A stretch of 64,000 nucleotides of DNA from Calocera cornea HHB12733 (taxonomy: Eukaryota; Basidiomycota; Dacrymycetes; Dacrymycetales; Dacrymycetaceae): positions 62,001-126,000 of the forward strand of contig KV423966.1 in the NCBI GenBank assembly GCA_001632435.1, read 5' to 3'. Under the pieces are notes generated by a model. The model saw nothing but the letters and a program-made list of their open reading frames with translations. It was not told where the DNA came from and searched no databases. The position numbers and the translations under genes were made by a program. This document shows, one piece after another, positions 56,369-64,000 of the stretch. Within the stretch, counting starts at the first letter, position 1, and each line of letters starts with the position of its first letter.

Positions 56369-58628
56369 TTTCCCAATCTATAGCTGATTGGTAATTTCCC
56401 CGTATTGATCCCCGCGGACTGCCGTTGTATTTCTAGGCTGTACAATCTAAGTATGCTCAATAGCCGAATAAGGAGATGTTTGCTATCAGTAGGATGTCCG
56501 ACTCTGCGGCTTTGTGATTGGGAGGGTGGTTCGTTGTGCGGGCAGGGTGTGTCATATCCGCGGCAGCAATATCCGGCGCGGGTGGAGCACGTCATGAGAA
56601 GCGAACACGCGTAAACCGCGTTGCTTTTGAAGGTTTTCGCGCCGAAACCATGCGTCGAAGCTGCGCTCGGCTTCCAAGACCGATACCCAACAACGTGGAA
56701 AGCAGGAAAAGCGCTGATTGTGACTTCAATATGACGTGACTTTTCGATGACCTGGAGGACCCCGGACCACCAGCTCCTTCGATGCTTTTCATCGCAATAC
56801 CCGAATTTTGGAATGTGGCGCTGTCCGTGCCTCAGATCATGCCCGCGACCTATTGATATTATCAATCCCGGCCTCCACCCTTCTTTCCTCCGTGCATACG
56901 GGACTTGCTTGTGGCTGGTGGCAGTACCCGGCGACATCTTCTCCGTCCGCTTTTAGGATTTATTAGACCAGGGACGGATCTATTGTATCGGAGGACATTC
57001 GAAGGCGGGGAGCGGGCGCCGGGCATAAACGCGCAGGAAGCTGTGCTTCACGCTCGAGCCAGTGCGCACTGCCCATATCGGAAACCGAGCTTGGAGCTAA
57101 AGCTGTGACTAGCATTGGAGCGCACTGCGGGACCCCACCTCGAAATCATGAGGGCCGAACCAGACTAGAAAATTGCCCGCTTAAGACATGCGGGGCCTAG
57201 CGTCGCCCATTCGCGCCTCAACTCGGAGCCCGGTGCCACAGCCGGCTCCCCGCCAAGGTCCGGAATGGATAGCGACACATGACGAGGATGGGCGCTGTCG
57301 CCAGCTTTCATCTTCCGCGTGCGAAGAGGTCAGTAATGCTATATCCATGTAATGCGCAACCGCACATTTTCGCCACAACGGCTGGTAAAGTTAGTTGAGA
57401 ACCCAATTACCCCGCTCCAGAACGGTCGGACGCCCTTTGTTCTTGTCATCTAAATCCGCTGAGCTCCTTTGTCTGTGTCTCATGTCGCGGACCGCGGATC
57501 TAGACCCGTTGCAATGGAAACGATCATGAGACATTCTGTCCTTTGATCCGGTTGCGTGACAATGGATCATGGCATGTGCTGCTTGCCCTAGACAGGTTCT
57601 GTAGAGAAGTCATTTTCTAGTGTTGAATATTCACAGTCAGTCAGTAGTGAGTAAGATGACTAAACCTGCTGCCGTTGATCGACGAAACTAGATCCACCTA
57701 GAGAGCCTTTCTCGCCGCATGACGAGCCATGCTGTCTTATTTTTGGATGAAACTGTTCGCGTACTGAAATGGATGTCAAAAGGACGTGCAAGCCGTAGGA
57801 CTTGTATTAGTAGAGTGTACTGATTCCTGGAGACGTCTCGTCGGCAGCAAAGTTTCTGATAAGCAGGAGTACCGTAACAACACATCTGTTCGCCGACCAT
57901 TAACTGCATTATGATGCGCCCACTTACGTTTACCTTCGAGGGAACGACACAGACCAGGGAACGCTCGCTGAAGCACTGCCCTCACAGCTGCTCGCCGAGC
58001 ACGATGACAATGGTGGCCAGTGGATAAGTGCGACACTGAAACTCAGAGTGACAGGATGTCTCTGTAACTCTGCAAATCATGAGTGCAAGCTGTGACTACA
58101 TTGATATTGCGGAGCGTTCCAGCTCGGGCATTTTGTGGAGAGCGGCAGCTCCGAGTCGACCATGGGCGAATCTCGATTGTGAGATCCGCGCCAATGGCCG
58201 GAGCACGTGCATTGAAAACTGTATAGAGTGCGATAATTGTCAGTAATAAGGACGACCATTCCAATGGTCGTTGCGGTTTAGGTTGCAAGTGGATGACTTG
58301 CCGTAGACATAAAAACCCAGATTTCGGGCTCCCAGATGCGCCACATAGGGTCTGCCGAGGTGCCGCTGTCACAATTCAAACTCCGAAGCACTTCCAGATT
58401 TATGCAGGGCGATCCTAGATTGCGAATCTGGAAGAGGGGGTCGACCCCCTCTTCCAGATTTTTTGGCCGACCCAGACCTTCACGGAACCACATCTCATCA
58501 CAAGTGTTTCACGGCGCGCACGGCACACTTCAGGATGCGCCAATCACAGGCATGCAATGTACATTGTCATCTTGGTATCTTCATCAGCCCGCAGATTGCG
58601 CATCCTGCCTACCACGACCATCTCCACC
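56369..58628. other. Intergenic region left of the mobile-element genes
   Basis: About 2.3 kb. 56369-58300 has only short or shadow frames. From about 58327 the first half copies of the TGCGC motif appear, a 36-bp perfect palindrome lies at 58425-58460, and another AGGATGCGCC occurs at about 58533. This may include the left end of the element. Confidence 0.45.
58425..58460. repeat. Perfect 36-bp palindrome
   Basis: Two 18-bp arms with no loop, centred on GTCGAC; each arm reads AATCTGGAAGAGGGGGTC. A further direct copy of CTTCCAGATT stands at 58391-58400. It is placed at the left border of the motif-rich region and could mark an element end or a junction of two ends. Confidence 0.9.
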
Positions 58629-59912
58629 ATGTCCGGCTCCTCCTTTCGCGCACCCTCTCCGACGCCCACTCCCTCCTACGTCCCTTCAACCTTTCCGCAG
58701 CCTTCCGCAACCTATGTGGCTCCCACCGCACCTTTTGCAACACCTGGCTATGCTTCTCAGTGGGGCTCCGGCAGCCCCTACAGCCGCAGCCCAAGAACAA
58801 TGCCCGACTCACCTCAACTGGACGCCGACGGCTTCCCGCGCACCCTGGACGATCTACGCAGCTACGCCATGGCTTCCGAGCCTGTTGCCCACGCAGCACA
58901 GGATGCGCAGCCTGCCACAACCACCCGAAAGCGCAAGGCAACAAAAGCAGTGGCGGAGGGTGCGCCTGATGCAAAGAAGACTCCCAAGGGCGGCCGGGGT
59001 TCAGGTGTCCGCAATTTCAGCATGGCTGAATTGCAGGAGTTGATCGAGCTCATTGAGAGCCACCGCCCCATTGGCTCTGATGGATGGGAGGCTGTGATGG
59101 CGGGCATGCAAACTTATTGGGCATCCGAAGGCATGGATGCCCGTACTCCTGAGAGCCTCAGGCGGAAGTTTGCTGAGGTGCGCAGCCTGGGAAGGATGCG
59201 CAACACCTCCCACTGACCCCCGTTGTAGCTGGCACGGAAGCCAAAGCCGACTGGCGATGGCGAAATGCCAGATCTCATACGGCGCGCCAAAGATGTCGAC
59301 CGCGAGATTCAGAATGACGTTCACATGGGCAACCTACAGGACGACGAAGATGTCGAAGAGGTTATCCCATGGTCACCCTCTGACCGAGAGGATGCGCCGG
59401 GGCCAGCGCAGCCTGCGCGTGGTTCGCACACACCCAGCACATCTGCAAATGATGATGTCCTGCTCCGCCAACGCCGTCATGTCACCCACGGCACCAAGTC
59501 CAGTGGTCGCCCATCACAGACTGCAACCTTGCTGGCCAATGTCAGCAGGGCCTTTGACCCCGACGCGCAGACTGAACGGATGCAACGGCGCGAATCAATC
59601 CGAGCCGAGCGCAGCCTGTTCCAGAGTGAAATATCCTCGCTCCAGGCTCAACTCCGAGACAAGCAGTACGAGCTGGTGACGGTCAGCATGGAGAAAGACA
59701 AGCTTATTGAGTCGCTCAGGACTCAGGTCCTTCAGGATGCGCGAGCCCTCCTCGTCGTACAGGGTGAGCTTGATGTGGCCAAGGCCAAGCTTGAGATGCA
59801 GGAAAGGATGCGCACTATGATGATGGGCATGGGAAACATGGGTCAATTAATAGCGCACTCTATGAGTCTGTCGCCACAAGAGGGTGCTCACTCATCTTCC
59901 ACCACAATGTAA
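58629..59912 (+). CDS. Myb/SANT-like DNA-binding protein of a PIF/Harbinger-type element
   Basis: 410 residues; exons 58629-59177 and 59229-59912, one 51-nt intron. After a Ser/Pro-rich N-terminus and a basic stretch (TTRKRKATKA), the conserved domain runs from about residue 128: NFSMAELQELIELIE, PIGSDGWEAVMAGM, ESLRRKFAELARKPKPTG. The Trp spacing and GW...R(R)KF pattern match the SANT-like/DUF6818 type. A coiled coil (LQAQLRDKQYELVTV) follows, ending Met-rich. It lies tail to tail with the DDE gene, overlapping by 25 bp. SANT-like plus DDE is the standard PIF/Harbinger pair, in which the SANT protein helps the nuclease bind DNA. Copies of the TGCGCA palindrome lie in the intron and in the coding sequence. 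Confidence 0.82.
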
Positions 59913-61257
59913 TGAAATTTCGCCACTCTGTCTGCCTTCCGAATGTCCGGGAAGAACATTTCTCGCAGAGACCCCCAGACCTGCTTCTGCTCCTTTGTTT
60001 CGGTCCAAATTGGCTCGTATACGCTGCGCAACTGGTTGATGCCAACCAGGCGCACCCTGATCTGATGGAGTCGAAAGACGGTCTCCAGCAGGGTGCGCCG
60101 TGCCCTCCCATCGTTTGCATCCAAGGGGAGGCGCAGCCTGCCAAAGGAGCCTTGGATCGCCCGCATCCCCCATTCGGCTGATTGCCGGAATGAAACCAAT
60201 TGATCAAGGAATTGGACTTGTTCCCGGGTGGTTCGTGTACCACTCTTTACTGGTGTCTTGATCTTACTTCTGAGCGTACTTCGATTATGCGGGAACGCGG
60301 TGTCGGCAGCAAGGAAGTATGGGTCCGGTGTGTTTTCCTCGAGCTGAGCATAAATCCCACTTGATACTCTGGAATCATGCCAGCTGCCGGGTGCATTGAT
60401 AGCTGCATGGAGCAGTTCGCCTGGGAGGAAGGTTTGTGCGTCAGTGCATCCTCAGGCTGCGCATCCTGAAGCGTACCCCGAGTAGAGAATACAAGCACGT
60501 TGCTTGTGAAATGCCCATGCAACCACCCATTGTACTGCGCATTCTGCCAGCGCTCGTCACTGGAGGTTGCTGTGGGCAGGTTGAGCCCGTCGACAGAGCC
60601 GAACGCACCCTGCAGCAGTGGATGCCTTGCAACGACCAGTTCGGATAGCTTTTCCATGTCTTCTTCTTCAGGCCATACTATTCGAGCTTCTGGAACACTT
60701 TTCAGGGTGCGCAAAAGGAGATCCAGGGCAAATGCGCGATATCGTGTGATTGTCGATGGGATGAGAGCGAAGATTTGGGCCAGGGACTTGTCGAGCATCG
60801 TGGAGTTGAGCCAGTACAGTACTAACCCCAGACCTCCGGCAGCATTGAGGGACCTTTTGCCTGGCCTTGCTTCTCCCCAGGCAGATACATCTGGACGGGG
60901 GATCGCTGAAGTATTCCAGAGGTCTTCGAATCCGGCCTCCAGGATGCGCTTGAAGGTCTTCACGTCCAGCCCCATCGTGGTGATGTACGCGCGATCGACC
61001 TCACCTGTCAGCACGGTCTGGAAGGGGGTGCGCAGCCTGGGGTTCCGAAGGAGGTCTCGCCGGGAGAGGTAGGCGCGGTGCGCTCGACGGTCTCTTGCTC
61101 CGTGCAGCGCAGCCTGATGATCAACCACTATCAAGAAGGCTGCGCCCTGTAATTGCTCCTCGGAATCGTCATCAGAGGAGTCGCTCGCAGTAGTTGATGA
61201 GTAGGTGGAAGGTGATGGTGAGGGTGCGCGCTGTATCCCCCGTGGTACACGGTGCAT
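59888..61257 (-). CDS. PIF/Harbinger-type DDE transposase
   Basis: 437 residues; exons 60477-61257 and 59888-60420, one 56-nt intron. A helical N-terminal part precedes the nuclease fold. First catalytic Asp in GAFGSVDGLNLP, second in AINAPGSWHDSR (completed across the intron), and the Glu in QSAEWGMRAIQGSFGRL, followed by FGRLR. This is the HARBI1/DDE_Tnp_4 signature. All three residues are present and the frame is intact, so it could be active. Its stop lies inside the 3' end of the SANT-like gene. The intron contains a full TGCGCA palindrome (60453-60468). Typical Harbinger ends and a 3-bp target duplication were not found. Confidence 0.88.
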
Positions 61258-61442
61258 ACTGTGCGGCGGTTAACCTCTGCATTTGCGGTTGGATGTTCAC
61301 TGGCGAGCCAGACTTCAGGATGCGCACCCTGAAGTCTCAGATTCATGTATTGCACCGGCCAAACAAAGCAAAGTAAATGGAATTCATTACACGCGCGACG
61401 CGACGCGACACGCGACGCGTCAGAGTACAGCACATGCTAGCC

Positions 61443-64000
61443 CTACGATTTCTTCACAAATTCGGTAACAATCCACTGGTTCCGGCCCTTCCACTGTATG
61501 GGGTGTCAGAGCAGTCACCCGAGCAGGATGCGCGCAGCCTGATCTGTACTCACCGGCCCGTGCTGCTCCGTACGTGCTTCCACGGTCATGAGCCAGCGTT
61601 TCGTCTCCAAATTGTCGACGGCCCAACGGGCCAGGTTGTACTGCTCAAACTGGCGCGCAACCGGTCAGGATGCGCGCAACCTGTCAGGATGCGCACTCAC
61701 ATCGTTGTTGTTGAGGTCCATTCTTTGCCGCATGTACTCAGCCGACATCCCGAGCGCACCCTTCGTCGCCGTGTCGAATGCCACGGCCTCGTGAACGTCC
61801 CCGTTACGGTCCTTGATCCTGAATCGCATACGATACCTGTGTTTGGAGTCAGTGGAGTGTATTTGGCAGTTAGGCTGCGCACCCTGAGGATGCGCAGCGC
61901 CCCACATACCTGCCCATACCTTTCTCGAAGACGTGATCGCAGCGCGCGCATTGGTATTGGGTCGGACTAATGGCGTTCCCGGCCTCGACCTTCTTGTTGC
62001 AGTGCGGGTTGGCGCACCCTACATAGGTCACCGACCCGGGGTTCAGCACCTGAATATGCCCCTCGATCTTGAAGTGCGACGGAACCTGGTCGAGCCCGAG
62101 ATGTTGGGCCTCGACCTGAGCCATAGAGAGCGTGGGGGCACGCGTAGTGAGCCCCCACCTGCGCAGAGCCTTCGAGCCTTCCGCGCTGCAGCTCAATGCG
62201 AGGACGTTCCACTCGGTGTCGTTGGCGAGCATCATGTTCCACCTGGCAAGAGGGGTTAGGATGCGCATCCTGGGAGGCGAGGCGCAACCTCAGGCTGCGC
62301 CGTGCTCACCAAGCTACCATGTCGTTGTACGCCGCCGCAAGCATGGGATGGTCCTGCCCGAGCCAAATCTCCGTCAGTCCGTGCTGGGTCTTCAGGCAGA
62401 TGTCATCTTGGCGGGTATCGTCCATGAGCACGTTGTGCAACATGACGACCTCGCCATCCCGTCCGTAGAGCTGCTCTGGGAACTCGTCCCATGCCATGAG
62501 GCGGCGAGCGATGAGCGTCTTGTCGGTGACCCAACACTCGCAGCGAGTCAACGAAGGAGGGGTCGTCCAGCCCTGTCTATTGTCAGACAGGTTGCGCACC
62601 CTGTACGGCTGGCTCACCTTCGTCGCGTCTTGCTTGGGCTTGCCTGGTATGATCGCGCTTGTGTTCATGATCACACACCATACATCTGGTGTGCAATCAG
62701 CACAGGATGCGCAGCCTGTAACGCATCCACGCACCAATCGATTTGTTGTAGAAGCCGCGCTCGAGCTGGTTGAGACGGCGAGGGCGGATGATGTAGTCGG
62801 GGATCTGAGGGTCTTCTTGCTGTATGCAAGTCAGCAGGCTGCGCACCCTGCGAGGATGCGCAACTCACCTCGTAGATCTTGCAGGACTTGTCCAGGGCCA
62901 GTTGCGCCTTGTGAAAGGTACGGCACCATTTCGCCGTCGCTACAACCTTCACGTTGAACAGCTGATAGCAACGGCCGATGCGCAGCCTGTCCACGTATGG
63001 CTTCAACTCAGGGCGAACAACGGCATCCATTGTGGTGTACGGGTCGTGCACGACGAGGTCGATCGTGCTATTCTTGTTCTCGATGCGCGTCACGCGTACA
63101 ACTGCATTGCCGATGTTGCCGGGGCCCAGCGATGAAAGGAGGTCCCACCCAGGGTGCGCCGGATGGTTCTCTGGGAGGGGAACGAAGGCTGTCGGGTAGG
63201 CGAAGGGCTTGAGCAGCTCGATATAGGGGTTGGGGGCAGGGGCGGGCTGTTGGGCGATGGCGGGGTTGACAGGATGCGCACCCTGTCGGGCAAGGATCTC
63301 TGTTGGGTTGGCACCCCAACGGTAACCCCAGCCAGGTACGTCGCAGACCGAGTTCAATCCCTCCTGGACCAGGCCGTTGGCGTCGAGCGGTGTCCACCCT
63401 GGTGGGATCATGTGGCGAGCAAAGTTGGGGAGCGGCTCGCCCACGGTGAAGAGCCATCCACCCATCGGCGCACCCTGGAGCGCAGGCTGCGCATTCTGTG
63501 GGGCGTGGTTGTTGTGTCCGTCGACGGGGATGTTCGCATCCAATCCACGGAGCAAGGGTGGACCTTGCGAGACCAGTTGCCGATAGGCCGGTGGCACCCA
63601 TTCGTAGCTCTTTGGGTCGCCGCGTACTGATGTATATGCGTTTGCGCGAGCGAATACGATGTCGGTTCGTTGCGCTGGTCGGCCGATCTTCTCAGGGTGC
63701 GCCTGAACTCGAGCGACGTTCCAGACGAGGATGGAGACACTAGAGTAGGGGTTAGCGCATCCTGTGGGGGACGTGGGACAGCAGGGTGCGCACCAGTGCT
63801 GATTGTCCAATGGCGGAAACCACACCTCATGCCCAATCAGCCGGACTTCGTCGTAGCACTGGAGATGCCCGGACTGAATCTTGTGGACGACATCGAGACC
63901 GGCAACGACAGGGATGGTGAGCAGGCTATCGCTGATCCAGAGGCTGCGTACGCGTCAGGTTGCGCATCCTGAGGAGCATGCGACTCAACTCACGTCCAGA
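61443..64000 (-). CDS. RPA1-like single-strand DNA-binding protein (5' end outside window)
   Basis: At least 676 residues; exons 63994-64000, 63824-63943, 62869-63739, 62735-62819, 62618-62685, 62310-62572, 61910-62242, 61701-61836, 61554-61649, 61443-61493. An OB fold is visible around VVRVTRIENKNSTIDLVV and RIGRCYQLFNVKVVATAKW, a second around IDVWCVIMN. A C-terminal domain has a four-Cys zinc ribbon (VGCANPHCNKKV, then CARCDHVF) followed by YRMRFRIKD and GALGMSAEYMRQ, as in the Rep_fac-A C-terminal domain. In RPA this subunit coats single-stranded DNA. A long Pro-rich segment lies before the first OB fold. Every one of its nine introns carries the TGCGCA palindrome. Whether it is a mobile-element gene or the host RPA1 is open. 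Confidence 0.78.

Follow-up and report, generated by a model that had tools for sequence, protein, structure and literature searches.

A PIF/Harbinger transposon filled with a palindrome

The window analysed here is a 64,000-bp stretch of the Calocera cornea HHB12733 genome (contig KV423966.1, positions 62,001 to 126,000, or C53:62001-126000, where C-numbers denote the contigs of the 32.1-Mb genome, 302 in all), and a TGCGCA-centred palindrome recurs through its last 6 kb. The initial annotation, made from the sequence letters, had assigned this palindrome to 58327-63975; the locus was right, while the limits proved to be those of a single PIF/Harbinger transposon of 6168 bp, running from window position 58291 to the equivalent of 64458, 458 bp beyond the window end. 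Its part within the window, 58291-64000, was delimited by terminal inverted repeats (TIRs), the target site duplication (TSD) and copies at C2, C62 and C83. The left TIR, GGATGACTTGCCGTAGAC (18 bp, plus strand, 58291-58308), was determined by copy comparison and is preceded by the left copy of the TSD, AGT, at 58288-58290; the right copy lies beyond the window end, and AGT flanks both sides of the element. TIRs of 18 bp and a 3-bp target duplication, AGT/ACT, were found in all four full-length copies (C53, C2, C62 and C83), with no match to TWA, the usual PIF/Harbinger target. The window copy and its three sisters are 6168-6255 bp long with a pairwise identity of 66-72%, i.e. 28-34% of positions differ, and in a fifth copy, C155, the right part is missing and Rep_fac-A_C gave no match.

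The SANT-like, DDE and RPA1-like genes named for this region by the initial annotation were all recovered by Pfam scans. On the plus strand, the SANT-like gene (DUF6818, PF20681; 58629-59912) encodes a protein with a C-terminal coiled-coil-like region; its second exon alone matched DUF6818 at E 2.6e-05 and 25 bits, under the cut-off of 27, and the cut-off is passed (41.6 bits) only when neighbouring stretches are counted in, the best single stretch staying below. A DUF6818 match is present in each of the five C53-type elements, and the SANT-like gene intron at 59178-59228, read by eye, contains the motif. The minus strand carries the DDE_Tnp_4 (PF13359) transposase gene with at least two exons, placed at 59888-61269 by the Pfam match (E 1.4e-11, 44.7 bits, cut-off 24.8) and the reading frames, and the RPA1-like gene (Rep_fac-A_C, PF08646, E 4e-08), which occupies 61443-64000 and is modelled to run to 64167, beyond the window end. 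The latter model has eight introns, seven of them with the motif, and an uncertain exon 1-2 junction; the predicted protein is similar to RPA70 chains (E 7e-08 to 2e-05). The window element thus shows what marks PIF/Harbinger transposons, namely a DDE_Tnp_4 transposase, TIRs with a 3-bp TSD and a second gene of the Myb/SANT-like kind.

The palindrome is confined to certain transposons

Allowing up to two mismatches, the palindrome CAGGNTGCGCANCCTG has 13 matches in the window, all within 58592-63971, against a mean of 0.45 and a maximum of 3 in 100 shuffles, and 45 of the 47 window copies of the half-site CAGGNTGCGC lie inside the last 6 kb, so the recurrence and its restriction to this region, as first noticed, are real. 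Counted by AGGNTGCGC on either strand, 51 site centres are present in the 6168-bp element; 49 of them fall in the window, with centres from 58538 to 63963 forming a field of sites at 58531-63971. Dozens of sites had been predicted at one per 130-150 bp; the number stands, but the sites are a little denser, with a mean gap of 114 bp. By motif search, exact palindromes are CAGGATGCGCAGCCTG at 58899-58914 and again at 62703-62718, CAGGCTGCGCATCCTG at 60453-60468, CAGGATGCGCACCCTG at 61316-61331, CAGGTTGCGCACCCTG at 62588-62603 and CAGGTTGCGCATCCTG at 63956-63971, together with two that the gene model places within the RPA1-like gene, i.e. CAGGCTGCGCACCCTG in an intron (62835-62850) and a further CAGGATGCGCACCCTG in a coding exon (63270-63285).

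In the genome-wide count with up to two mismatches that had been proposed as a check, 451 palindromes were found versus 195 for a reversed control pattern, and exact palindromes numbered 44 versus none for that control. Forty-three of the 44 sit in regions of 9-40 CAGGNTGCGC half-sites around transposon genes, and the 44th, on C13, is a lone site with two half-sites nearby. The four full-length copies hold 47-55 AGGNTGCGC centres each (204 in total), while 300 permuted-letter words occurred 1.3 times on average in the same copies, with a maximum of 41, the highest-count words probably being those that overlap the motif itself. When the element length was divided into 20 bins, the first held 4 sites, the last 7 and the others 1-19, giving no clustering at the ends. 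Introns are the densest parts: the 26 sites of the modelled RPA1-like span are split into 13 in 406 bp of intron and 13 in 2319 bp of exon. One RPA1-like intron also holds a short tandem array (61653-61694; 19-bp unit, 2.2 copies) built of motif pieces, the sole such array within the element part of the window.

Selection acts at the DNA level

Comparison of the four copies revealed that sites are kept in place in 458 of 612 ordered comparisons (75%), against 151 of 1167 for control words; with motifs masked prior to alignment, 406 of the 612 (66%) were still co-located. Among the 51 window-copy sites, 26 were found in all four copies (20 with masking). The N base at 257 co-aligned half-sites has an identity of 0.53, versus 0.51 in the flanks, and hence drifts like its surroundings. 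Codons were compared over four coding stretches (two with four copies and two with three, in ordered pairs that are non-independent): at codons for the same amino acid, third positions are identical at 406 of 433 inside motifs (94%) and at 2602 of 5435 outside (48%), a contrast that is large in every one of the four stretches. In the same stretches, amino acids match in 568 of 712 cases inside motifs and 5568 of 8342 outside. With respect to the genes, 103 half-sites are sense and 116 antisense, which rules out a signal acting at the RNA level.

Because positions are kept, N drifts, third codon positions are frozen and both orientations are used equally, selection on a two-fold symmetric, predicted binding site, one of the two explanations offered initially, is strongly supported. 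That selection acts on the DNA word as such, whether in exon, intron or spacer, is well supported whichever protein reads it. The palindrome is restricted to certain transposons, spread over nearly their full length and held by selection at the DNA level, coding exons included. The other explanation offered, a functionless micro-repeat spread by mutation or gene conversion, has in its favour only the high local copy number, and fails on the shared positions in diverged copies, the N drift and the frozen third codon positions; moreover, where one of the four copies lacks a site, the alignment is mostly ungapped, with 0-3 gaps opposite missing sites per ordered pair. We regard it as having next to no chance of being correct.

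Element ends carry a separate word and a hairpin

Subterminal repeats bound by the transposase are known in cut-and-paste transposons, and their counterpart here is a different sequence, the word CNNAGAT. Each of five elements has it 5-10 times within the terminal 300 bp and 0-1 times in its body: CCCAGAT in the window copy (7 at the ends, 0 in the body), CCTAGAT in C2 (5 and 0) and C62 (10 and 0), CGTAGAT in C83 (9 and 1), and CGCAGAT in C14 (6 and 0). The palindrome, in contrast, is spread through the body and sparse at the ends, its first site lying 248-308 bp and its last site 92-198 bp from the element ends. As the ends carry their own word, the body code differs from ordinary end recognition, which can be ruled out as the role of the palindrome; the contrast with subterminal transposase repeats drawn by the initial annotation thus proved sound.

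A perfect 36-bp subterminal palindrome with the potential to form a hairpin was also recognized by copy comparison at 58425-58460 (element position 135-170). Over the five copies, all 65 cells of its 13 pairs are paired, one cell being G-T, and four pairs are changed on both sides; 48 of 500 shuffles reach four such pairs and none of 500 reaches the covariation score. The hairpin contains an inverted pair of the element-specific terminal word, and its pairing is kept although the letters differ among sister copies because it holds an inverted pair of each element's own word.

Versions of the palindrome occur in unrelated transposons

Three dialects of the motif were distinguished, A with CAGGN arms, B with ACNN arms and C with a TGCGCCA core, and transposons of four unrelated kinds in this genome are studded with versions of this one short palindrome. 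The C11 and C27 elements are Mutator-like elements (MULEs; PF10551) with an RPA1-like gene and are filled with the same motif as the window element; the two copies are 84.3% identical, 36 of 40 sites are common to both, and N is C in 90 of 95 half-sites. C36 is a Helitron (Helitron_like_N E 6.5e-31, PIF1 E 9.4e-19) that also encodes an RPA1-like and a short coiled-coil-like protein. Its word, ACNNTGCGCANNGT, is present in 31 full copies over the 12.5 kb analysed, and its distribution ends abruptly on the right; genome-wide, ACNNTGCGCANNGT was counted 161 times versus 37 for the control. The same word was found near RPA1-like genes on C118 and C258, and a TGCGCCA form near that on C140. A Helitron_like_N match lies 8-9 kb away on C118 and C140, and a helicase-like end was read by eye at C140 (L053), suggesting that these two RPA1-like genes belong to Helitrons as well. 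By contrast, only 2 of 39 MULE-domain matches and none of 36 Helitron_like_N matches have an exact A palindrome within 10 kb, and the B word lies at up to that distance from 1 of 10 Helitron matches among the matches listed (C1-C36).

Several Harbingers without an RPA1 match have the A motif, namely the near-identical 2.9-kb copies on C14, C18 and C78 and the elements on C38, C198 and C268, and that on C34 has the B motif, inverted repeats and a TGA duplication. Myb_DNA-bind_3 proteins are encoded in the C34 and C268 Harbingers; the C14 SANT-like protein was called by eye and has no Pfam match. The CAGGN motif is also found in C76, an element with a Tc5-type helix-turn-helix domain (PF03221, E 2.2e-05) and no RPA1 match.

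An RPA1-like protein is the best candidate reader

Nineteen RPA1-like loci were tested for a dispersed 6-letter word, and at ten of them (C2, C53, C62, C83, C11, C27, C36, C118, C258 and C140) a word exceeded all 60 shuffles. With a profile built from five of the ten word-bearing proteins, those ten score 63-167 bits versus at most 42 bits for the others, a separation that is partly by construction. When 17 RPA1-like domains were placed in a tree, the motif classes (A, B, C and none) required three changes, the minimum possible, whereas shuffled labels need 8.4 on average and none of 200 shuffles was as low. The window RPA1-like protein matches that of the MULEs at E 3e-41 over most of its length, and its best Helitron-type match (C118) has E 3e-08. 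A profile search with the RPA1-like exon, run to E 5, returned no relative of solved structure, and single-sequence fold prediction gave a mean pLDDT of 30. Since the gene is common to motif-bearing Harbinger, MULE and Helitron elements, and since the motif dialect follows the grouping of the RPA1-like proteins and not the transposase superfamily, the RPA1-like protein is the likeliest candidate reader, though not a proven one. The SANT protein or the transposase would be less likely readers, because versions of the code are also present in a MULE and a Helitron in which no SANT or DDE_Tnp_4 domain was recognised.

No clear dispersed word accompanies the further RPA1-like genes at C9:237792, C40:138163, C83:124906, C7:130646, C48:48402 and C3:150554. 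A short coiled-coil-like protein is encoded on the opposite strand beside RPA1-like genes at L046:2620-3144, L043:366-1073 and L037:23-970; it could be a partner of the RPA1-like reader.

A proposed body-wide code and its possible readers

We tentatively propose, as a reading somewhat short of even probability, that the palindrome serves DNA transposons as a cis code along their whole body, likely read by the element's RPA1-like protein. A protein dimer would bind the palindrome on double-stranded DNA and so mark the whole element as self; the RPA1-like protein encoded by several elements would be the likeliest reader, and smaller elements lacking the gene would rely on a reader supplied in trans. 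Coating of the element may then shield it from host DNA methylation or small RNAs, as VANC does for Arabidopsis VANDAL elements, which is the least certain step. If this holds, transposons mark their full length with a code for which coding sequence has to make room and which is shared across superfamilies. Plant VANC would then be joined by another, independent example of transposons recognising themselves by sequence, and the presence of RPA1-like genes in transposons would be explained. A broader and still more tentative version is that the TGCGC-cored dialects form a public identity code across superfamilies, read by RPA1-like proteins that have been passed between superfamilies, with RPA-less elements borrowing the reader. 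RPA1, a single-strand replication protein, would in that case have been turned into a double-strand, sequence-specific self-recognition factor.

Several observations weigh against the proposal that RPA1-like proteins read the palindrome. The smaller Harbingers and the Tc5-type element carry the motif without an RPA1-like gene, and the C16 Harbinger (L049, C16:87800-90799) is filled with another word, GACCAGCA (14 in 3 kb versus a shuffle maximum of 5), for which no RPA1-like partner was found. Nine of the 19 RPA1-like loci tested, host RPA1 among them, have no word above the shuffles, and three of these word-less loci (C7, C48 and C3:150554) sit 11-17 kb from Helitron_like_N matches. The RPA1-like tree is short with long branches, and its A group is weakly supported (58/29); between the window RPA1-like protein and that of C36 no match passed E 1e-3, and the RPA1-like exon of the MULE resembles motif-less C48 (3e-19) about as closely as it does motif-bearing proteins outside its own pair (2.6e-28 to 1e-6). 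In the C16 Harbinger, GACCAGCA also forms palindromic pairs such as GACCAGCAGCTGGTC.

Other readers are conceivable, and that the SANT/Myb-like accessory protein of Harbingers reads the palindrome and helps to gather the transposase on the element seems unlikely to us. In a zebrafish Harbinger, a Myb-like protein reportedly binds a subterminal palindrome, and here DUF6818 occurs in five C53-type elements and Myb_DNA-bind_3 in the C34 and C268 Harbingers; yet these last two share one kind of SANT protein while their arms differ (B versus A), the code is present although no SANT/Myb domain was found in the six MULE frames or the Helitron frames scanned, and the end words, which a transposition complex would need, are a different sequence. 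About equally improbable is a host DNA-binding protein on which the superfamilies have converged for some benefit such as open chromatin, replication timing or transcription. Such a factor would account for the use of TGCGC-cored words by four superfamilies that have no genes in common and in part lack RPA1-like genes, but the exact palindrome is nearly absent outside elements (43 of 44 inside), which would be unexpected if a host factor had targets of its own, and dialects A, B and C differ among elements of one genome.

The sites could also serve replication or strand handling in transposition, with an RPA1-like protein loading at each site to protect or organise single strands. Single-strand coating of the body is not known to be required by cut-and-paste Harbingers and MULEs, and the site is a two-fold symmetric palindrome of the double-strand type, with many half-sites in both orientations. 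Sites spaced across the whole body would suit this role, as would the binding of single strands by RPA1 family proteins and the RPA genes of plant Helitrons (PMC4683698, in its available text), and even so we consider it improbable, more so than the SANT or host alternatives.

Silencing and CpG decay

Some results also count against the anti-silencing step of our proposal. The genome has 7 DNA methyltransferase and 20 Piwi domain matches. The C14, C18 and C78 copies (L008:4138-7035, L009:4134-7031 and L016:2892-5789), the youngest ones, differ at 20 columns, all of them transitions, and 17 of these are in CpG context, whereas CpG accounts for 298 of the 1588 contexts of cytosine, so methylation-driven decay appears to act on motif-bearing elements too. 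The CpG observed/expected ratio is 0.70-0.74 in the RPA1-bearing MULEs, as low as in the RPA-less Harbingers (0.63-0.73, with C63 at 0.40 as an exception). The four window-type copies have 0.86-0.89, C155 has 0.75 and the Helitron 0.89-1.07; window sequence that lies outside the element has 0.99. Among the recent CpG transitions, 1 of 17 affected a motif-centre CpG, compared with 22 of 149 CpGs, numbers too small to show whether that CpG is spared. The CpG picture is therefore mixed, in that silencing pressure fits while protection by the code does not follow from it, and the comparison with VANC accordingly concerns a likely function, not membership.

Relation to known systems

The nearest known system, the VANC anti-silencing proteins and their motifs in the Arabidopsis VANDAL (MULE) elements (PMC5735166, PMC10398659), resembles the present one in several respects, as far as the available text goes: an element-specific short word is enriched along the transposon and rare elsewhere (PMC5735166), as the palindrome is here, its dialects vary among families, and the proposed reader is an extra, non-transposase gene. 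Unlike the palindrome, the VANC words described there are mainly non-coding, same-orientation tandem repeats with rapid gain and loss, whereas the palindrome is two-fold symmetric, runs through coding exons, is kept in position and is common to unrelated superfamilies; 13 of the 26 sites in the RPA1-like span are exonic, with one short array. Binding and methylation loss have been demonstrated for VANC in these sources; the RPA1-like protein is a candidate reader. The VANC family did not turn up in Pfam scans of the element frames, in which no search with a VANC protein was included.

RPA-like genes are known in plant Helitrons (PMC4683698), and the RPA1-like gene seen in C36, and probably in C118 and C140, agrees with the available part of that account; here, in contrast to it, the gene is also found in PIF/Harbinger and MULE elements and is accompanied by a matching body-wide word. 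The available texts of two papers on fungal Helitrons (PMC4289320, PMC5148889) report no RPA-like gene in the elements studied. In fungi, DNA transposons of many lineages have acquired TET/JBP genes (PMC12730594), which by the accessible text is a parallel case of one accessory gene, a proposed counter to methylation silencing, passed among unrelated superfamilies, with the difference that TET/JBP is an enzyme and not a sequence reader; that text contains neither RPA nor replication protein and describes no body-wide motif. The literature searched, which covered few subscription papers, yielded no account of Harbinger or MULE elements with RPA1-like genes, nor of a body-wide palindrome common to transposon superfamilies.

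Local and marginal repeats

Two of three 3-kb control stretches had no word above the shuffles, and the third had a purine-rich 6-mer (11 versus 10). Repeats at L023 and L026 were rejected as element-wide codes, being local clusters only, and a GCGCCA word in the C1 Harbinger (L052), which resembled the C140 word, was discarded with 10 occurrences versus 12 in shuffles. By word count C63 (L050) is marginal (16 versus 14), as is C198 (L051), where a non-motif word reached 15 versus 13; yet C198 holds 14 AGGNTGCGC half-sites.

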